A stretch of 48,638 nucleotides of DNA from positions 1 to 48,638 of the IMG/VR virus record IMGVR_UViG_3300049157_000025; one strand, given 5' to 3'. The stretch comes from a virus. The notes below the pieces were generated by a model, which did no database searches, had not been told where the DNA came from, and saw only the letters and a program-made list of their open reading frames with translations. Shown here in pieces: positions 13,065-26,423 of the stretch (positions are counted from its first letter, which is position 1; every line of letters begins with the position of its first letter). Position numbers and translations under genes: made by a program.

Positions 13065-13412
13065 ATGTGGGATGAGTTTGAACTACCGCAGCTGCCGGAT
13101 GTCGTTGCGTGCCCATACTGCGCAGGAATCGGTACTTGTTACGGCCTTGCTCCTCATACGCATTATATGACGCGAGACTCAATATCGACGACACTAGACA
13201 GTAAAGACAAATGGCCAGACAATTTTCACGAAGACCCTGAAGTACCAGGATGCGGGGTTTGGGTTTGTGGCTTATGCGAAGGTTTAGGTACTGTAGAGCT
13301 GCCTATAGAGATTGCAACTGACGATAAGAATTTAGGTGAGCGGTACGAAGACTTTGGAGAGAAAGTAGATGTCGTTCTTTTAGAGTATCTACAGGGGGTT
13401 GGTGAAACATGA
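13065..13412 (+). CDS. DnaJ-type CxxCxGxG zinc-finger protein
   Basis: A 115-residue protein with two CxxCxGxG motifs, CPYCAGIG (near residue 16) and CGLCEGLG (near residue 69). In DnaJ, pairs of these form zinc centres that hold unfolded protein. There is no J domain, so it may be a stand-alone adaptor. GGAG lies upstream of the ATG. Its stop overlaps the start of the first hexapeptide-repeat gene as ATGA, so the two are translationally coupled, and the zinc protein may act on the repeat proteins. That link is inferred from gene order. Confidence 0.75.
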   Translation: MWDEFELPQLPDVVACPYCAGIGTCYGLAPHTHYMTRDSISTTLDSKDKWPDNFHEDPEVPGCGVWVCGLCEGLGTVELPIEIATDDKNLGERYEDFGEKVDVVLLEYLQGVGET

Positions 13413-14122
13413 CCAAAAAGTATGAATTCACTGGAGAAACTAAACAATTCCAGAACTCAACCTTGCGTCAGATCTGTAGGCTATCAGACGGCGAGATAGG
13501 GGGCTGGTTAGAAAAAGAGGAGAACTTAAGTCATAGCGGGGAATGTTGGGTAGGGGAAAACTCTAATATATCTGGAAACGCTCATGTGTCCGGGGACGCT
13601 AAGGTGTCTGGTGACGCTGAGGTGTTCGGAAACGCTCAGGTATACGGAAACGCTTGGGTGTGCGGAAACGCTTGGATGTACGAAAACGCCAAGGTGTACG
13701 AAAACGCCAAAGTGTTCGGAAACGCTCGGGTGACCGGACACTCTGAGGTGTACGAAAACGCCAAGGTGTATGGAAACTCCAAGGTGTCCGGAAAGGCCAA
13801 GGTGTCTGGTGACTCTGAGGTGTCTGACGACGCTTGGGTGTTCGGAAACGCTCGGGTGACCGGACACTCTGAGGTGTACGGACACGCTCAGGTGTGCGGA
13901 ACCACTAAGGTGTTCGGCGACACCAAGGTGTACGGAAACTCTGAGGTGTCCGGAGACGCTAAGGTGTCTGGAAACTCTGAGGTGTACGAAAACTCCAAGG
14001 TGTTCGGAAACGCTCAGGTGTCTGGAAACTCTAAGGTGTTCGGAAACGCCAGGGTGTTCGAAAACTCTCAGGTGTCTGGAGACGCTAAGGTGTCTGGGGA
14101 TGCCCTGAAGCTACATTACTGA
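13409..14122 (+). CDS. YdcK-like hexapeptide-repeat protein, array copy 1
   Basis: A 237-residue protein. Residues 1-47 are the shared N-terminal segment (KYEFTGETK, then GGWLEKEENLS, then GECW). From Val48 there are 31 unbroken hexads of the form V-x-G-N-A-x, then a tail KLHY. The hexad fits the left-handed beta-helix rule, with an inward aliphatic at position 1 and a small residue at position 5. The N-terminal segment resembles E. coli YdcK and single-copy phage relatives, whose function is unknown. There is no signal peptide. It overlaps the zinc-finger gene by four bases and shares a 78-bp identical block with copy 2. Confidence 0.85.
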   Translation: MTKKYEFTGETKQFQNSTLRQICRLSDGEIGGWLEKEENLSHSGECWVGENSNISGNAHVSGDAKVSGDAEVFGNAQVYGNAWVCGNAWMYENAKVYENAKVFGNARVTGHSEVYENAKVYGNSKVSGKAKVSGDSEVSDDAWVFGNARVTGHSEVYGHAQVCGTTKVFGDTKVYGNSEVSGDAKVSGNSEVYENSKVFGNAQVSGNSKVFGNARVFENSQVSGDAKVSGDALKLHY

Positions 14123-14141
14123 AGATTAAAAAGGAACAGCT

Positions 14142-14909
14142 GTGACCAAAAAATACGAATTCACAGGCGAGACTAAACAGTTACACAACTTAACCCTACG
14201 CAAAATCCGTAGGCTATCAGACGGTAAGATAGGTGGGTGGGTAGAAAAAGAGGAGAACTTAAGCCATGACGGGGGATGTTGGGTAGGGGGAAACGCTAAT
14301 ATATCTGGAAACGCTAAGGTGTACAGAGACGCTAAGGTGTACGGAAACGCTCAGGTATACGGAAACGCTCAGGTATACGGAAACGCTCAGGTGTGCGGAG
14401 ACGCTTGGGTGTGCGGGAACGCTTGGGTGTGCGGAGACGCTTGGGTGTACGGAAACGCTTGGGTGTACGGACACGCTAAGGTATACGGAAACGCTCAGGT
14501 ATACGGAAACGCTCGGGTGACCGGACACTCTGAGGTGTACGAAAACGCTTGGGTGTGCGGACACGCCAAGGTGTTCGGAAACGCTTGGATGTACGGACAC
14601 GCTAAGGTGTACGAAAACTCTAAGGTGTTCGGAAACGCTCGGGTGACCGGACACTCTGAGGTGTACGAAAACGCCAAGGTGTATGGAAACGCTGAGGTGT
14701 CCGGAAACGCTGAGGTGTCTGGTGACTCTGAGGTGTCTGACGACGCTTGGGTGTTCGGAAACGCTCGGGTGACCGGACACTCTGAGGTGTATGGAAACGC
14801 CAAGGTGTACGGAAACTCCAAGGTGTTCGGAACCGCCAGGGTGTTCGAAAACTCTCAGGTGTCCGGGGACGCTCAGGTGTCTGGGGACGTCCTGAAGCTT
14901 CATTGCTGA
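14142..14909 (+). CDS. YdcK-like hexapeptide-repeat protein, array copy 2
   Basis: A 255-residue protein with a GTG start after AAGGAACAGCT. After the 47-residue N-terminal segment come 34 hexads and the tail KLHC. It is rich in NAW hexads (several in a row around 14400-14480), which place Trp on the outer face. The blocks around the HSE hexads match copy 1 at the DNA level, a sign of exchange between copies. Confidence 0.85.
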   Translation: MTKKYEFTGETKQLHNLTLRKIRRLSDGKIGGWVEKEENLSHDGGCWVGGNANISGNAKVYRDAKVYGNAQVYGNAQVYGNAQVCGDAWVCGNAWVCGDAWVYGNAWVYGHAKVYGNAQVYGNARVTGHSEVYENAWVCGHAKVFGNAWMYGHAKVYENSKVFGNARVTGHSEVYENAKVYGNAEVSGNAEVSGDSEVSDDAWVFGNARVTGHSEVYGNAKVYGNSKVFGTARVFENSQVSGDAQVSGDVLKLHC

Positions 14910-14928
14910 AGATCGAAAAGGAACAGCT

Positions 14929-16311
14929 ATGGTCGACAAATACGAATTCACAGGCGAAACTAAACAATTCCAGAACTCAACTTTATGCCAAATCCGCAGA
15001 ATATCAGACGGCGAGATAGGGGGCTGGTTAGAAAAAGAGGAGAACTTAAGTCATGACGGGGAATGTTGGGTAAGGGAAAGCGCTAAGGTGTTCGGAAACG
15101 CTGAGGTGTTCGGAGACGCTGAGGTGTCCGGCGACGCTGAGGTGTTCGGAAACGCCAAGGTATCTGGAAAGGCTTGGGTGTACAGAGACGCTCAGGTGTA
15201 CGAGAACTCTGAGGTATTCGGAAACGCCAAGGTATCTGGGAAGACTCGGGTGTACGGAGACGCCAAGGTGTACGGATACGCCAAGGTGTCTGGAAAGGCT
15301 TGGGTGTACAGAGACGCTCAGGCGCACGAAAACTCTGAGGTGTACGGAAACGCTCAGGTGTCTGGAAACTCTGAGGTATACGGAAACGCCAAGGTGTCCG
15401 GAGACGCTCAGGTGTACGAAAACGCCAAGGTGTTCGGGCACGCTAAGGTGTTCTGGGGGGCTCTGGTGTACGGGGAGGCTCTGGTGTACGAGGACGCCAA
15501 GGTGTTTGAATATGCTAAGGTGTGTGGAGTTGCTAAGGTGAACGGGAACTCTGAGGTGTATGGAAACGCTCGATTGTACGAAAACGCTTGGGTGACTGGA
15601 TTTGCTTGGGTGTACGAAAACGCCAAGGTGTTTGGACACGCCAAGGTATCTGGAAAGGCTTGGGTGTACGGAGACGCCAAGGTGTACGAAAACGCCAAGG
15701 TGTTTGGATGTGCTAAGGTACACGGAAACGTTGAGGTGTATGAAAACGCTGAGGTGTACGAAAACGCTTGGGTGACTGGGTCTGCTCGAGTGTCTAGTAA
15801 TGGTAAGGTGTTCGGCGACGCCAAGATATCTGGATACGCTAGGGTATATGGAAACGCTGAGGTATTTGGGAACGCCAAGGTGTACGAGGACGCTAGGGTA
15901 TACGGATACGCTCAGGTGTCTGGACACGCCAAGCTGTTCGGGGACGCTAAGGTGTTCGGAGACGCTAAGGTGTACGAGAACTCTGAGGTATTCGGAAACG
16001 CCGAGGTGTACGAAAACGCTGAGGTATTTGGAGACGCCAGGGTACTCGGAAACGCCAGGGTATCTGGAAGGGCTTGGGTGTACGGAGACGCTCATGTGTA
16101 TGGAAACGCCAAGGTATCTGGAAAGGCTTGGGTGTACGGAGACACCGAGGTGCGCGAAAACGCTCATGTGTATGGAGACGCCAAGGTGTATGGAGACGCC
16201 AAGGTATCTGGAAAGACTTTGGTATACGGACACGCTAAGGTGTTCGGGGACGCCAAGGTGTGCGGAAACTCTGAGGTGTCTGGAAACGCTGAGGTGGTTG
16301 AAAACTCTTGA
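14929..16311 (+). CDS. YdcK-like hexapeptide-repeat protein, array copy 3 (longest)
   Basis: A 460-residue protein with an ATG start (MVDKYEF rather than MTKKYEF). It has 68 full hexads plus a partial one, roughly 23 coils if three hexads make a turn. It ends at an early TGA in CTTGAGCTACATTG. Compared with the CTGAAGCTACATTG tails of copies 2 and 5, one base is missing, so the KLHC tail is lost. It contains more unusual hexads than its neighbours (for example VFWGAL, VNGNSE, VSSNGK). Confidence 0.85.
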   Translation: MVDKYEFTGETKQFQNSTLCQIRRISDGEIGGWLEKEENLSHDGECWVRESAKVFGNAEVFGDAEVSGDAEVFGNAKVSGKAWVYRDAQVYENSEVFGNAKVSGKTRVYGDAKVYGYAKVSGKAWVYRDAQAHENSEVYGNAQVSGNSEVYGNAKVSGDAQVYENAKVFGHAKVFWGALVYGEALVYEDAKVFEYAKVCGVAKVNGNSEVYGNARLYENAWVTGFAWVYENAKVFGHAKVSGKAWVYGDAKVYENAKVFGCAKVHGNVEVYENAEVYENAWVTGSARVSSNGKVFGDAKISGYARVYGNAEVFGNAKVYEDARVYGYAQVSGHAKLFGDAKVFGDAKVYENSEVFGNAEVYENAEVFGDARVLGNARVSGRAWVYGDAHVYGNAKVSGKAWVYGDTEVRENAHVYGDAKVYGDAKVSGKTLVYGHAKVFGDAKVCGNSEVSGNAEVVENS

Positions 16312-16343
16312 GCTACATTGTTGAAGATCGAAAAGGAACAGCT

Positions 16344-17042
16344 ATGGTCGACAAATACGAATTCACAGGTGAGACTAAACAGTTACAGAACTTAACCCTT
16401 CGGCAAATCCGTAGGCTATCGGACGGCAGGATAGGTGGTTGGATCGAAAAAGAGGAGAACTTAAGTCATAGCGGGGAATGTTGGGTAGGGGAAAACTCTA
16501 AGATATCTGGAAACGCTAAGGTGTCCGGAAACGCTCAGGTATATGGAAACTCTGAGGTGTTTGGGTACACCAAGGTATCTGGAAACTCTGAGGTGCACGA
16601 AAACGCCAAGGTGTACGGACACGCTTGGGTGTGCGGAAAGGCTTGGGTGTACGGAGACGCCGAGGTGTACGAAAACTCTGAGGTGTACGGAAACGCTAAG
16701 GTGTCCGGAAACGCCGAGGTGTACGAAAACTCCAAGGTGTACGGAAACGCTAAGGTGTATGGAAACGCTTGGGTGTACGGAAACGCTAAGGTGTTCTGGG
16801 ACGCTAAGGTGTTCGGTGAGGCTCTGGTATACGGAAACGCTAAAGTGTACGGAAACTCTGAGGTGCACGAAAACGCCAAGGTGTACGGACACGCCAAGGT
16901 GTACAGAAACGCCAAGGTATCTGGGAAGGCTTGGGTGTATGGAGACGCCAAGGTGTACGAGGACGCTAGGGTATACGGATACGCTAAGGTGTTTGGGGAC
17001 GTCAAGGTGTGCGGAAACTCTGAGGTGTCTGGAAACGCTTGA
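16344..17042 (+). CDS. YdcK-like hexapeptide-repeat protein, array copy 4
   Basis: A 232-residue protein. The frame is open upstream to 16308, but the ATG at 16344 aligns with the other copies and follows AAGGAACAGCT. It has 30 full hexads plus five residues. As in copy 3, a one-base loss in the tail gives an early TGA. The N-terminal DNA shares the GTCGAC start segment with copy 3. Confidence 0.85.
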   Translation: MVDKYEFTGETKQLQNLTLRQIRRLSDGRIGGWIEKEENLSHSGECWVGENSKISGNAKVSGNAQVYGNSEVFGYTKVSGNSEVHENAKVYGHAWVCGKAWVYGDAEVYENSEVYGNAKVSGNAEVYENSKVYGNAKVYGNAWVYGNAKVFWDAKVFGEALVYGNAKVYGNSEVHENAKVYGHAKVYRNAKVSGKAWVYGDAKVYEDARVYGYAKVFGDVKVCGNSEVSGNA

Positions 17043-17074
17043 GCTTCATTGCTGAAGAGCAAAAAGGAACATCT

Positions 17075-17824
17075 GTGACCAAAAAGTATGAATTCACAGG
17101 CGAAACTAAACAATTCCAGAACTCAACTTTATGCCAAATCCGCAGAATATCAGACGGCGAGATAGGGGGCTGGTTAGAAAAAGAGGAGAACTTAAGTCAT
17201 GACGGGGAATGTTGGGTAGGAGGGAACGCTAAAGTGTTTAAAAACGCCAGGGTGTTCGAAAACGCCCATGTGTCCGGGGACGCTAAGGTGTCTGGAAACT
17301 CTTGGGTGATTGGAGCTGCTCAAGTTGGCGAAAACGCTGGGGTATATGGGGGCGCTCAGGTGTCTGGAAACTCCAGGTTGTATGGAAACGCCAAGGTGAC
17401 TGGGTCTACTCAGGTGTCCGGCGACGCTAGGGTATTCGGAAACGCCAAGGTATCTGGGAAGGCTTGGGTGTTCGAAAACGCTCAGGTGTACGGAAACGCC
17501 AAGGTATCTGGAAAGGCTTGGGTGTACGGAGACGCCGAGGTGCGCGAAAACTCTGAGGTATTTGGAAACTCTGAGGTATTTGGAAACGCCGAAGTGTACG
17601 GAAACTCTGAGGTATATGGATATGCTAAAGTGTTTGGAAACGCCGAGGTGTACGAAAACGCTGAGGTATTTGGGGACGCTAAGGTGTTCGGGGAAGCCAA
17701 GGTGTACGAAAACTCTGAGGTATTTGGAAACGCCGAGGTGTACGAAAACGCTGAGGTATACGGAACCACTCAGGTATATGGAGACGCCAAGGTGTCTGGG
17801 GACGTCCTGAAGCTACATTGTTGA
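17075..17824 (+). CDS. YdcK-like hexapeptide-repeat protein, array copy 5
   Basis: A 249-residue protein from GTG at 17075, preceded by AAGGAACATCT. It has 33 hexads and the KLHC tail. The early hexads (VIGAAQ, VGENAG, VYGGAQ, LYGNAK) depart from the standard more than the later ones, which are nearly uniform. That is consistent with recent expansion of the distal part. Confidence 0.85.
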   Translation: MTKKYEFTGETKQFQNSTLCQIRRISDGEIGGWLEKEENLSHDGECWVGGNAKVFKNARVFENAHVSGDAKVSGNSWVIGAAQVGENAGVYGGAQVSGNSRLYGNAKVTGSTQVSGDARVFGNAKVSGKAWVFENAQVYGNAKVSGKAWVYGDAEVRENSEVFGNSEVFGNAEVYGNSEVYGYAKVFGNAEVYENAEVFGDAKVFGEAKVYENSEVFGNAEVYENAEVYGTTQVYGDAKVSGDVLKLHC

Positions 17825-17843
17825 AGATCGAAAAGGAACAGCT

Positions 17844-19037
17844 GTGACCAAAAAGTATGAATTCACAGGCAAAACTAAACAGATACAGAACTCAACCCTA
17901 CGCCAAATCCGCAGAATATCAGACGGCAGGATAGGTGGTTGGATCGAAAAAGAGGAGAACTTAAGCCATTACGGGGAATGTTGGGTAGGAGGAAACGTCA
18001 AGGTGTCTGGAGACTCTGAGGTGTTCGAAAACGCCAAGGTGTCTGGTGACGCTGAGGTGTCTGGCGACGCTTGGGTTTCTGGGGATGCTAAGATATCTGG
18101 AGACGCCTTGGTGTTCGGTAAGACTCATGTGTCTGGAAACGCTCAAGTGGGCTCCCACGCTCAGGTATTCGGAAACGCTTGGGTGTACGAAAACGCCAAG
18201 GTATCCGGGTATGCTCGGGTGTTCGGAAAGGCTCTCGTGTCCGGCAAGGCCCAGGTATTTGGGCACGCCAAGGTGTACGAAAACGCTTTTGTGTCTGAAG
18301 ACTCTCAGGTGTACGAAGACGCTCTGGTGCATGGAAACGCCAAGGTGTACGAAAACGCTAAAGTGTCCGGGAATGCTGAGGTGTACGAAAACGCTGAGGT
18401 ATTTGGGGGTGTCTTGGTTTTTGCAGACGCCAAGGTATCCGGAGACGCCAAGGTGCGCGAAAGAGCTAAGCTTTATGGAGACGCTTGGGTGTACGAAAAC
18501 GCTGAGATATATGGAAGCGCTAAAGTGCTCGGAAACACTGAGGTATGTGGAAGCGCTAAAGTGTTTGAAAACTCTAAAGTGTTTGAAAACGCTAAGGTAT
18601 TTGGAAACGTTAGGGTGTACGGAGACGCTTGGGTGGGTGGAAGCGCTAATGTGTTTGGAATCGCTAAGGTGTATGAAAGCTCTAAAGTTTTTGGAAATGC
18701 TCTAGTTTACAGAAACGCTCAGGTATACGGAAACGCTCAGGTGTACGGAAACGCTCAGGTATACGGAAACTCTAAGGTATACGGAAACGCTCAAGTGTCC
18801 ATAAACGCTAAGGTGTCTGGAAACGCTCAGGTGTCTGGAAACGCTCAGGTGTCTGGAAGGTCTGAGGTGTTCGGAAAGGCCAAGGTATATGGGGATGCTT
18901 GGGTGTTTGGGAACGCTGAAGTGTTTGAAAACGCTTTTGTATACGAAAACGCTCAAGTTCTTGGAGATGCCAAGGTACACGGGTACGTCAGGGTGTCTGG
19001 AACCACCAAAGTGTCAGGGAAAAAGGAGATTTTGTAG
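17844..19037 (+). CDS. YdcK-like hexapeptide-repeat protein, array copy 6
   Basis: A 397-residue protein with a GTG start. It has 58 hexads and ends in VSGKKEIL, without KLHC. The N-terminal segment reads FTGKTKQIQN rather than FTGETKQFQN. It is the last copy before the methylase insertion, and its unusual end may be the left scar of that event. Confidence 0.85.
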   Translation: MTKKYEFTGKTKQIQNSTLRQIRRISDGRIGGWIEKEENLSHYGECWVGGNVKVSGDSEVFENAKVSGDAEVSGDAWVSGDAKISGDALVFGKTHVSGNAQVGSHAQVFGNAWVYENAKVSGYARVFGKALVSGKAQVFGHAKVYENAFVSEDSQVYEDALVHGNAKVYENAKVSGNAEVYENAEVFGGVLVFADAKVSGDAKVRERAKLYGDAWVYENAEIYGSAKVLGNTEVCGSAKVFENSKVFENAKVFGNVRVYGDAWVGGSANVFGIAKVYESSKVFGNALVYRNAQVYGNAQVYGNAQVYGNSKVYGNAQVSINAKVSGNAQVSGNAQVSGRSEVFGKAKVYGDAWVFGNAEVFENAFVYENAQVLGDAKVHGYVRVSGTTKVSGKKEIL

Positions 19038-19381
19038 TGAAAAAAATACCAACAGTCCTCTGTTGTCCCCTCAGCCCTTTGCCGCCCTCGTGGATCTTAT
19101 GACCTATTTTCAGATACTTACGGAGAGATGTTCCAGTTTACTGTACATTTTTGCGACTAAGTGTCTCATTTTGACATTAGGATATCTGCAAGTTGTGGAT
19201 ATTAAACGAGAATTTCCCACTTTACTTCTCACTTAAGGTATGCTACGCTCGTCTGAGTTCTCCTTCAGAGAACGGTGGGCCAAAGCCTAGCGGCGGCCCT
19301 CCGCCCTGCGGGCTCAGAAGTGACTCGTAAGTCCTTGATTTTAAAGACACTTTTTGTTTCCGATTGATACACTCAGAAACT
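19038..19381. other. Structured non-coding segment left of the methylase gene
   Basis: There are no hexad repeats and no gene, and the composition differs from the array. It holds a consensus -35 box TTGACA (19171-19176) without a well-placed -10. Nearby hairpins are GTTCTC/GAGAAC (19257-19273) and GGCGG-CCCT-CCGCC (19292-19305), bracketed by CTGAG (19253) and CTCAG (19317). This looks like a small folded element brought in with the methylase. It does not match an attC site or intron that I can recognise. Confidence 0.45.
19334..19347 (+). repeat. 14-bp direct repeat, left copy
   Basis: CTTGATTTTAAAGA, identical to 20177-20190 on the far side of the methylase gene. Confidence 0.7.
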
Positions 19382-20170
19382 ATGACAAGACCATTTCTTA
19401 AATGGGCGGGTGGAAAACGACAACTCCTGCCCGAACTACGCCGATCCGTCCCTAGGACGTTCGGTCGGTACTATGAACCGTTCGTCGGTGGTGGAGCGTT
19501 ATTTTTCGATCTTTGTCCGTGCCGTGCCACCTTATCCGACACCAATCAAGAGCTGATCCATACGTACTTGGCCATTCGAGACGAGCCGGAGAACGTCATA
19601 AATTATTTGGAGCTACTGGGGGAGAATACGAGAGAGAGCTTCTACACAGTCCGATCGATGGACGTCAGATTGCTACCCTACGCGCATAAAGCCGCAAGAA
19701 TGATTTACTTGAACAAAACTTGTTTTAACGGATTATACCGGGTCAATAAGAGGGGTCTATTCAACACACCATTCGGACAATACAAAAATCCGTTAATCTT
19801 GGATCGTCATACCCTCATGGAGGCATCCCGAGCGTTGTCGAAGGCTACTATCAAATGTCAAGATGCCTTCCAGATCGATCCGCACCCAGGGGATCTGGTA
19901 TACTTCGATCCCCCATATTATCCCAGGGATAACCAATCTTTCACTAGCTATACAAGCCAGGGGTTCACAGAAGAACAGCACGTACAGTTAGCAAACTTCG
20001 CCAAACAGCTATTAGAGAAAGGTGTGTGCATCATTCTCTCGAATTCCGACACCCCTTTTACTCGTAGAATCTACAAAGGATTGAGGGTGGAAGTTGTCAA
20101 GGCTCGACGATCGATCAACAGAGATGCAACGAAACGAGGAGTGATAACTGAACTGCTGGTTACCAGCTAA
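19382..20170 (+). CDS. Dam-type DNA adenine N6-methylase (D12 class)
   Basis: A 262-residue protein from the ATG at 19382; a TTG at 19364 is possible. Motifs in order are KWAGGKRQLL at the N-terminus, EPFVGGGALFF (AdoMet binding), CFNGLYRVNKRGLFNTPFG and the catalytic DPPY in VYFDPPYY. This is the layout of Dam/DpnM enzymes, which methylate adenine, usually in GATC. No matching restriction gene is present, so protection from host restriction or regulation of timing is more likely. It sits inside the repeat array between two 14-bp direct repeats, and its base use differs from the cassettes. Confidence 0.9.
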   Translation: MTRPFLKWAGGKRQLLPELRRSVPRTFGRYYEPFVGGGALFFDLCPCRATLSDTNQELIHTYLAIRDEPENVINYLELLGENTRESFYTVRSMDVRLLPYAHKAARMIYLNKTCFNGLYRVNKRGLFNTPFGQYKNPLILDRHTLMEASRALSKATIKCQDAFQIDPHPGDLVYFDPPYYPRDNQSFTSYTSQGFTEEQHVQLANFAKQLLEKGVCIILSNSDTPFTRRIYKGLRVEVVKARRSINRDATKRGVITELLVTS

Positions 20171-20176
20171 AGGGTG

Positions 20177-20190
20177 CTTGATTTTAAAGA
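20177..20190 (+). repeat. 14-bp direct repeat, right copy
   Basis: CTTGATTTTAAAGA. Its last base is the A of the ATG of array copy 7. Confidence 0.7.
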
Positions 20191-20621
20191 TGACCAAAAA
20201 GTATGAATTCACAGGCGAAACTAAACAATTCCAGAACTCAACCCTTCGGCAAATCCGTAGGCTATCAGACGGCGAGATAGGAGGGTGGATCGAAAAAGAA
20301 GAGAATCTAAGCCAAGAGGGGGAATGTTGGGTAGGAGAAAACGCTAAGGTAGCTGAAAACGCCAGGGTGCTCGAGAACGCCCAGGTGAACGGAGACGCTC
20401 AGGTATTTGGGGATGTCTTGGTGTACGGGGACTCTTGGGTGTCTGGGGAGGCTAAGGTGTACGGAGAAGCTAGGGTGTACGGAAATGCTTTGGTGTGTGG
20501 GGATGCTCTGGTGTTTGGGAACGCTCAGGTGTACAAGGACGCCAAGGTGTTTGGATATGCTAAGGTATATGGAAACGCTGAGGTGTCTAAAAACGCTGAG
20601 GTGTTCGAAGCACGCATGTGA
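20190..20621 (+). CDS. YdcK-like hexapeptide-repeat protein, array copy 7 (shortest)
   Basis: A 143-residue protein with exactly 16 hexads after the constant segment, ending VFEARM. The usual AAGGAACAGCT linker is missing. The start codon follows the right direct repeat, with only a weak AGGG upstream, so translation may be poor or coupled to the methylase, whose stop is 19 bases away. The N-terminal DNA is close to copies 1-6. The hexads carry more VL and EA variants. Confidence 0.8.
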   Translation: MTKKYEFTGETKQFQNSTLRQIRRLSDGEIGGWIEKEENLSQEGECWVGENAKVAENARVLENAQVNGDAQVFGDVLVYGDSWVSGEAKVYGEARVYGNALVCGDALVFGNAQVYKDAKVFGYAKVYGNAEVSKNAEVFEARM

Positions 20622-20688
20622 CCTGGACACGAAGTACCTAATTGGGTTAGAAACCGTTGATGGGCTCTAAACGCTAAGGAGATACTCA

Positions 20689-21294
20689 ATGAAAGAGGCA
20701 GAGATGAAAGTCCGTCAGTTGCAGAAGTATGAATTTACTGGTGAGACCAAGGAAATTCACGGTAGGACTGTCCGCCAAATCCGTCGGTTGGCTGACGGGG
20801 TCATTGGCGGGTGGCTTGAGCAAGAATCAAACCTGAGCCATCTACACGACTGCTGGGTAGGCGGGGAAGCCGTTGCTCTAGAGAACTCAAAGGTGTCTGG
20901 GGCTGCTGAGATGTCCGGCAACGCTATAGCCACCGGATGTTCCAGAGTTGGCGAGTTCTCAAAGGTATTTGAGGATGCGGTTGTTTCAGGCAATTCTACA
21001 GTGGCGGGATACGCAAGAGTCTCTGGCACTGCTAAGTTGTCAGGAGACACGCGCGTCTCGGGTGACGCGATGGTGTTTGGTAACGCTGAATGTTCGGGCA
21101 ATTCACGGGCCTATGGAAACACACGCATCTCTCAGAATGCTGAGCTGTCTGGCGACTCTCGAGCTTTAGATAATTCAGAGATCTTTGGGAATGCCAAGCT
21201 GTCTGGGAATGTGAGCGCCTTTGGGACTGTCCGGGTTGCCGGTGAAGCAGAGCTGTGTGGCGATTTGGCTGTCTTTGAAGGTGAGTATTCATAA
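20689..21294 (+). CDS. Diverged YdcK-like hexapeptide-repeat protein, array copy 8
   Basis: A 201-residue protein with a good AAGGAG site. It has nine extra residues at the start (MKEAEMKVRQLQ precedes KYEFTGE), then 24 hexads and a final Ser. The hexads are far more varied than in copies 1-7 (ALENSK, ATGCSR, AYGNTR, CSGNSR), and the DNA no longer shares the 18-bp consensus. It looks like an older member that has escaped homogenisation, or the ancestral form. Confidence 0.8.
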   Translation: MKEAEMKVRQLQKYEFTGETKEIHGRTVRQIRRLADGVIGGWLEQESNLSHLHDCWVGGEAVALENSKVSGAAEMSGNAIATGCSRVGEFSKVFEDAVVSGNSTVAGYARVSGTAKLSGDTRVSGDAMVFGNAECSGNSRAYGNTRISQNAELSGDSRALDNSEIFGNAKLSGNVSAFGTVRVAGEAELCGDLAVFEGEYS

Positions 21295-24767: not shown

Positions 24768-26423
24768 ATGGGGAGCAGAGATTTCAACAAGGTCAGAGCC
24801 GACGCCGCCGCAGAGATAATCAGACGACGTAAGCATCAAGCAGAATGCCAAGAGGATTTGTTGAAGTTCGTCGTTAACACTCACCCAAACTTCGAAGTTA
24901 GCTGGCATCATAGGTTGATTTGCAAATGGCTTATGAAGCTAGAGTCCCCCGAGCATCCAGAGGTTACAAAACTAGCCATATTCACGGCACCTAGACATGG
25001 GAAAAGCGAGCTGGTCTCTCGACAGTTTCCAGCTTGGGTTTTGGGGAGAAATCCAGAATGGGAGGTTATCTGTGTCCAAAAAAACGACCGTCTATCTCAG
25101 GACATGGGGGCTAACGTAAGAGATATTGTAAATTCCCCTCCATACAAAACTGTGTTTCCTACCGTTTCGTTGAAGCAAGATGCAAAAGCGGCAGGTAGAT
25201 GGCTAATTGAGCATGAAGTAAAGAAAAAACAGGGTGTCTACTACGCCTCTGGTATAGGAGGCACAATTATTGGTCGAGGTGCAAATCTCCTAAACATTGA
25301 TGATCCTTTGGATAGCGAAGGGGCATCTTCGCAGCGACAAAGAGACATTGCTTCTGATTTTTATTTTGGGGATGCTATTCAGCGATTGATGCATCCTCGT
25401 TTGGAGCTATTTACAACGACCAGAAGGCACGAGGATGATTTAGCGGGAAGGATACTCCCTCCAGTTTCAAAATGGAAAGAAACTGGTGAAGAGTTTGTAT
25501 GGCAAACTGTGACAAAGCCTGTAGACTCTTCAGACCCAATAGTGTGGTGGGTAATAAAACTTCCTGCCATTATTGATGAAGGTCTCCCTACAGAGAGAGC
25601 CTTGTGGCCTGGGAAAGACAACAAACGTTTCCCTTTGTCTTTCTTAAAAACCCAGAGATCTTTAATCTTCGAACAGGGAAATTCAAGAGAGTGGTTTTGT
25701 CAATACCAGCAAGAAATGACCCCAGAGGAGGGTGTTTTTTGTAAACTTGAATGGTTTGCTGATAGATACGACAAACGAGATATACCAGAAGACCTTTGGA
25801 TTTACGCTGCGAGCGATTACGCTGTAACAGAGGAGGTTGGTAGAAAAGATCCAGACTTCACAGAGCATGGTATTTTTGGATTGGAAGGACTCCAGCAGGA
25901 GTATGACCACAATGGGAATGTGGTAGTTACTGCTGATGCTTTGTGGGTTCTTGACTGGTGGTATGGGAAAACCACCCCAGACAAGTGGATTGAAAGCATG
26001 GTCGCTTTGATCAAAAAGTGGCAGCCAAACACATGGTTTGGGACAAAAGGCCAAATCCACAATGCTGTAAACAGCTATATTGAAAGGGAAATTAAAAGGG
26101 AACGTGCCTGGTGTCGTTTTGAGCTTCTATCGGATATCAAGAAAAAGGGCGCCAAAGCAAAACCTATGCAAGGGATGGCTGCCCAAAGAAGAATTCTGTT
26201 CCCAAAAACTGTTTGGGCCGAAAGAGTTATTCAGAACGTATGTACGTTCCCAAATGCTAAACACGATGACGCTTTTGACACATTAGCCAATATAGTTCGA
26301 GCGATGAGTGAGATACCAGCGGCCTTTTCTGGTGCTCCGCACGTATCCAGAACACCTTTAAAATCAGACAGTTACGAGTTTTTTGATACAGATAGGAACT
26401 TTAAGAGTTGGAAATGCGCATAA
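24768..26423 (+). CDS. terL: Terminase large subunit
   Basis: A 551-residue packaging motor and nuclease. Walker A is APRHGKSE (about 74-81), Walker B is LLNIDDP (174-180), and an ATP-coupling TTTRR lies near 216-220. The C-terminal RNase H-like nuclease has D350 in YAASDYAV, a second acid in LWVLDWW (near 397) and the final HDDAFD (near 503). It cuts concatemers and drives DNA into the prohead through the portal encoded next. All expected residues are present. Confidence 0.93.
   Translation: MGSRDFNKVRADAAAEIIRRRKHQAECQEDLLKFVVNTHPNFEVSWHHRLICKWLMKLESPEHPEVTKLAIFTAPRHGKSELVSRQFPAWVLGRNPEWEVICVQKNDRLSQDMGANVRDIVNSPPYKTVFPTVSLKQDAKAAGRWLIEHEVKKKQGVYYASGIGGTIIGRGANLLNIDDPLDSEGASSQRQRDIASDFYFGDAIQRLMHPRLELFTTTRRHEDDLAGRILPPVSKWKETGEEFVWQTVTKPVDSSDPIVWWVIKLPAIIDEGLPTERALWPGKDNKRFPLSFLKTQRSLIFEQGNSREWFCQYQQEMTPEEGVFCKLEWFADRYDKRDIPEDLWIYAASDYAVTEEVGRKDPDFTEHGIFGLEGLQQEYDHNGNVVVTADALWVLDWWYGKTTPDKWIESMVALIKKWQPNTWFGTKGQIHNAVNSYIEREIKRERAWCRFELLSDIKKKGAKAKPMQGMAAQRRILFPKTVWAERVIQNVCTFPNAKHDDAFDTLANIVRAMSEIPAAFSGAPHVSRTPLKSDSYEFFDTDRNFKSWKCA

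Follow-up and report, generated by a model that had tools for sequence, protein, structure and literature searches.

The analysed stretch of DNA (the window) spans the full 48,638 bases of an IMG/VR virus record. Its genes include those for a P22-type portal (PF16510, E 1e-78) and a terminase large subunit. Judged by the portal, which is 30-34% identical across roughly half of its length, the nearest named relatives are Pseudanabaena phages Pam5, Pan3 and Pam1 and phage CBW1004C-Prop1, and no closer relative of this virus was found in the phage collection or in IMG/VR. Eight solenoid genes follow one another in a row (13409-21294), with a Dam-type adenine methylase gene located between the sixth and the seventh. 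Features of the locus are listed in Table 1.

Table 1. Features of the solenoid gene array and of the methylase locus in the window.
Feature	Position	Strand	Basis
Array copy 1, YdcK-like beta-solenoid gene, no upstream linker	13409..14122	+	PF18836 E 9e-16, phrog_5070 2.5e-108
Array copy 2, with upstream linker	14142..14909	+	sequence comparison of copies
Array copy 3, with upstream linker	14929..16311	+	sequence comparison of copies
Array copy 4, with upstream linker	16344..17042	+	sequence comparison of copies
Array copy 5, with upstream linker	17075..17824	+	sequence comparison of copies
Array copy 6; final 100 nt without 15-mer common to other copies, no linker after	17844..19037	+	
Non-coding gap, 344 bp	19038..19381	.	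folding and Rfam comparison
Weak motif-like site, 14/18 specified positions	19188..19207	+	
Complete motif GTAAGTCCTTGATTTTAAAG, 18/18	19327..19346	+	complement holds AATCAAGGACTTA, perfect match to IHF consensus WATCAANNNNTTR
14-bp direct repeat, left copy	19334..19347	+	exact string search
Proposed inserted segment (methylase and one repeat copy)	19348..20190	+	composition change, repeat boundaries; inferred
Dam-type (D12 class, GATC) adenine methylase gene	19382..20170	+	PF02086 7e-56, TIGR00571 3e-84, phrog_56 2e-66
Partial motif AAGGGTGCTTGATTTTAAAG, 14/18, without TAA half	20170..20189	+	
14-bp direct repeat, right copy	20177..20190	+	exact string search; last base is A of copy 7 ATG
Array copy 7, short (143 aa), without linker on either side	20190..20621	+	
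Copy 8, divergent solenoid gene, no 15-mer in common with others	20689..21294	+	

A common head is shared by copies 1-7, all of them YdcK-like beta-solenoid genes, and copy 8 is their distant relative. The linker ctgaagctacattgttgaagatcgaaaaggaacagct, or a sequence close to it, is located upstream of each of copies 2-6. No trace of it was detected before copy 1, nor, above the level of shuffled sequences, after copy 6 or before and after copy 7. The near-identical linker in copies 1-6 shows expansion by tandem duplication. Change in the copy number of such arrays is directly evident in related contigs, one with three solenoid copies (L020) and its sister with two (L021). The head of copy 7 is 83-87% identical in nucleotides to those of copies 1-6, within the range found among the latter (79-93%), and copy 7 therefore belongs to the same expansion. 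The lack of the standard linker at copy 7, pointed out in the initial annotation, was confirmed, but copy 1, first in the row, also has no linker upstream. The end of copy 6, described there as abnormal, does lack the linker present after copies 1-5; this description has to be qualified, as the LKLH(C/Y) tail is missing in copies 3 and 4 too, yet linker DNA is kept there.

The methylase gene codes for a product of 262 aa, which scores 282.9 bits against the curated Dam family model TIGR00571 (cut-off 114.85) and 190 bits against PF02086 (cut-off 22). Its nearest solved structure is the DpnII methylase (2dpm). Both the DPPY catalytic motif (D176 P177 P178 Y179) and the N-terminal glycine-rich region (G10 G11 K12) are intact, and they are invariant in nine aligned sequences. 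Presumably, the enzyme methylates GATC and in this way shields the phage from GATC-cutting host nucleases. D12 methylases were found in 8 of 47 solenoid-bearing viral records, and the two of them that aligned to the methylase of the window are 22-24% identical to it. In addition, the 11 records with a more similar methylase all lack a solenoid gene. The methylase is, based on these two results, not a fixed partner of solenoid genes. Near-identical D12 methylases were observed in two records of the same genome (L063:7986-9634 and L024:4221-8786), placed directly after a solenoid gene in one of them and about 3 kb before it in the other.

Composition sets the methylase gene apart. Among the 23 genes over 500 bp, it has the lowest codon-usage likelihood and the highest GC3. 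It contains 11 GATC sites against 2.1-2.3 expected, and represents the densest 789-nt GATC window of the genome, with 13.9 sites per kb in comparison to about 2.9 per kb genome-wide. Elsewhere in the genome this tetranucleotide is not avoided (observed/expected 0.90), and an excess among 14 other phage methylase genes was observed only in L013, where it is weaker. The density could reflect foreign origin, or self-regulation by methylation. In the part of the gap upstream of the left repeat (19038-19333), only one GATC or TCGA site occurs, compared with 7.1 expected at the rate of the segment (P 0.006, in a test based on few sites and with moderate codon and GATC anomalies). The compositional anomaly thus seems to have its edge at the left repeat, not where copy 6 ends. 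In sum, codon usage, GATC/TCGA content, loss of linkers on both sides and absence from the nearest named relatives support foreign origin and insertion of the methylase.

Inspection of the segment identified no transposase, integrase, homing nuclease or recombinase, the methylase being the sole sizeable gene in 19348-20176. No inverted pair that could represent terminal inverted repeats was found at the segment ends, and no convincing promoter or terminator of its own was found on the coding strand around the methylase gene. The 344-bp gap preceding the gene folds better than 100 of 100 shuffled sequences (z -3.3), with several adjacent hairpins at about 19250-19330. A known RNA in this gap was rejected because Rfam scores were at chance level. 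An insertion-sequence end was rejected as well: an 18-mer of the suspected end gave two matches in 257 Gb of genomes, equal to chance, and a distant blastn search of plasmids disclosed nothing real.

The exact direct repeat initially noted around the methylase was found in both copies as described. The sequence CTTGATTTTAAAGA occurs exactly twice in the window, bracketing the methylase gene, and no further site with up to two mismatches exists on either strand of the window. Between its left copy and the methylase ATG (19382) lie 34 bases; the right copy indeed runs into the start codon of copy 7 (20190-20192), overlapping it by its A. With the three preceding bases included, 16 of 17 nt agree, as GT[C/G]CTTGATTTTAAAGA. 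When the 22-nt right gap was resampled 20,000 times under a Markov model and compared with the 344-nt left gap, a match of 14 nt never arose, one resampling shared 13 nt, and eight shared at least 11 nt; this corresponds to P of about 1e-6 to 1e-5 for a 14-nt match between the two gaps, before allowing for gene choice. The methylase is the only one among 47 genes in the window with flanks that share more than 11 nt. At the same time, four direct repeats of at least 14 nt within 1.5 kb were detected outside the array, compared with 0.2 expected, so that the repeat is real although less extreme than the null model implies. It is unlikely that the pair arose by chance.

The left 14-mer proved to belong to a complete 20-nt motif, GTAASTNNTTGATTTTAAAG, of which it forms the 3' part, and the right copy holds the 3' part only. 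Motif positions account for 12 of the 14 shared bases. The left copy matches the IHF consensus WATCAANNNNTTR (PMC7581858) perfectly, and the right copy fails in its TTR half. When the flanks of the proposed segment are joined in silico, the resulting sequence GTAAGTCCTTGATTTTAAAGATGACC contains an intact motif abutting the ATG of copy 7. Another copy with 17 of 18 positions, GTAACTGTCTGATTTTAAAG, is present on the minus strand inside the 3' end of the terminase gene (26356-26375).

The motif is widespread. A query composed of the left junction and seven upstream bases, GTAAGTCCTTGATTTTAAAGA, was found in 12 viral contigs representing at least seven unrelated contexts, with a chance expectation roughly estimated as far below 1. 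The relaxed pattern GTAASTNNTTGATTTTAAAG matched at least 119 viral stretches (L118-L246), against four for the same pattern reversed, used as a control. Matches listed comprise 99 distinct contexts with unrelated flanks; the base preceding the motif is a pyrimidine in 94 of them, the following one is usually G, and about 91 of the 99 are intergenic according to ORF picking. No single gene family was found beside the motif among the matches listed; it is accompanied variously by primases, RusA, methylases, integrases, homing nucleases, terminases and T4-type proteins. A near-match is located in the gap after the primase gene in Pseudomonas phage Epa40 and in Salmonella phage KE25. A search of 299 Bacillota genomes gave no match, in too few bases to be informative, and no relevant report of the motif string was found in open-access literature.

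Among the matches listed, 30 extra copies (at least 15/18) occur within 150 nt of the motif, in contrast to none in shuffled flanks; 26 of the 30 are on the same strand, typically at a distance of 34-118 nt. As extra copies are not forced by the search to be perfect, their conservation is informative. In them, conservation reaches 97% at the nine positions that make up YAANNNNTTGATW, which is complementary to the IHF consensus, compared with 74% at the other specified positions. Of 42 imperfect copies, 32 retain the complete IHF core, against about nine expected. Repeated 7-mers accompany the motif in 26 of the 99 contexts listed, compared with 7 of 149 control positions (P 2e-6). Copies are often arranged in tandem on the same strand, and often lie beside iteron-like repeats, for example in L169:917-1049 and in L197 at 707 and 1450. 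Judging by its core and surroundings, the motif most probably serves as a site for IHF or a related protein, which would bend DNA at origins and in regulatory gaps, and not as a dedicated recognition site of a transposase; such IHF-type sites would often occupy origin-like gaps. Because conservation exceeds the usual IHF consensus, with fixed S and T and a flanking A/T run, another protein may bind it.

Among the nearest named relatives, Pam5, Pan3 and CBW1004C-Prop1 have neither a D12 methylase nor a solenoid gene, but they are distant (portal 30-34% identical). An empty site without the methylase, anticipated in the initial annotation, was not found in IMG/VR or in the phage collection, and none is readable because no close relative was found. 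The right junction, CTTGATTTTAAAGATGACC, has no match in IMG/VR. Among ten related methylases, a long flank repeat was detected only in L012. This repeat of 19 nt (L012:5765 and 6867) was rejected as an insertion scar, being a promoter-like module that recurs in several gaps.

The motif offers the best explanation of the repeat. According to the reading we favour, to which we assign about an even chance, a methylase of foreign origin came in at an intact motif upstream of copy 7, or by recombination through it, and the 3' part of this motif was duplicated. A foreign Dam-type gene of about 0.83 kb would have been added upstream of copy 7, in a place that already carried the complete motif GTAASTNNTTGATTTTAAAG. 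The addition would have split the motif, leaving all of it on the left side and only the 3' 14-17 bp on the right, and the 14-bp repeat would thus be a duplicated part of the motif. The duplication could have been made by staggered insertion, or by recombination of the resident motif with another copy carried on the incoming DNA. That the gene simply inserted between two members of the array is excluded: of the standard linker, neither half is left on either side, and linker DNA was therefore replaced, earlier or at the same time. Of the mobile cassette proposed initially, inserted with target duplication or by recombination, foreign origin and insertion are supported, and a mobile cassette with target duplication is a tentative label. 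The case for an arbitrary duplicated target is weaker, since the 14-mer forms the 3' part of a motif located between genes in many unrelated phages, and two copies can therefore look alike without such a duplication.

The full motif on the left and its 3' part on the right are what insertion into one intact motif predicts. On the other hand, since the motif anyway occurs as same-strand direct repeats, the right copy may be independent and decayed. The two 14-mers would then be ordinary intergenic copies, the methylase would merely sit between a complete and a decayed one, and the repeat would be uninformative about its arrival. This explanation, the main rival and less probable but to be taken seriously, agrees with the share of motif positions in the repeat, with the predominantly same-strand neighbours at usually 34-118 nt among the matches listed, and with the weak third copy at 19188. 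The L012 module around another methylase fits it too, as does L197, where two full copies 743 nt apart are on one strand, each in a repeated leader before a start codon. It accounts less well for the right copy, which lacks the TAA half usually kept by substituted copies, matches the left one at variable positions as well (the second N, A at +1, and GT before), and is located exactly at the start codon of copy 7. Coincidence of the two 14-mers is very improbable, even considering the other four close repeats outside the array, given the resampling result, the uniqueness among 47 genes, and the left copy being part of a motif common to many phages.

The order of events could also be reversed, with the methylase present first, copies 1-6 expanded by tandem duplication on its left, and copy 7 lying to its right as a solenoid gene of separate standing; no array would then have been split. 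Linkers are confined to copies 1-6, and copies 1 and 7, both without an upstream one, resemble array edges; moreover, array copy number varies, as in L020 and L021, and unrelated genes sit between solenoid genes in L025 and L037. We nevertheless consider this order unlikely, because the head of copy 7 falls within the range of copies 1-6, as expected for the same expansion, and the methylase is a compositional outlier.

Accessory genes such as methylases move between phages. An intergenic motif that occurs in many unrelated phages and is constrained at IHF consensus positions would provide a concrete landing or junction site, as well as a marker of phage origins. A broader proposal, which we put forward as speculative and rather improbable, is that GTAASTNNTTGATTTTAAAG acts in phages generally as an intergenic element to which an IHF-like protein binds, and as a preferred junction for gain and loss of accessory genes (methylases, homing endonucleases, integrases); at the methylase described here, one such event would have split the motif. 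The results also call for caution, as short direct repeats around a phage gene are not necessarily insertion scars.

Compared with known systems, the motif resembles IHF binding sites in its core, which is in exact register with the consensus, and in its position beside iteron-like repeats and, in two isolates, after the primase gene. As a predicted site, it differs in a longer fixed sequence (GTAAST..TTGATTTTAAAG) common to unrelated phages, the fixed S and T inside the spacer going beyond the E. coli IHF consensus. Transposon target-site duplications are similar in the short exact direct repeat at both gene ends, but the segment has no transposase and no terminal inverted repeats, and the duplicated sequence is itself a conserved motif. 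Like phage morons, the methylase is a single accessory gene, with composition unlike that of its neighbours, and absent from the nearest named, although distant, relatives; unlike them, it has no recognised promoter or terminator of its own, and is bounded by a repeat belonging to a shared motif. With phage orphan Dam-type methylases (phrog_56/TIGR00571) it shares the full-length D12 organization with DPPY and DpnII as the closest structure. It differs from them in showing no more than about 50% identity to any viral relative found, in its unusual GATC richness, and in being the only one seen within a beta-solenoid gene array.
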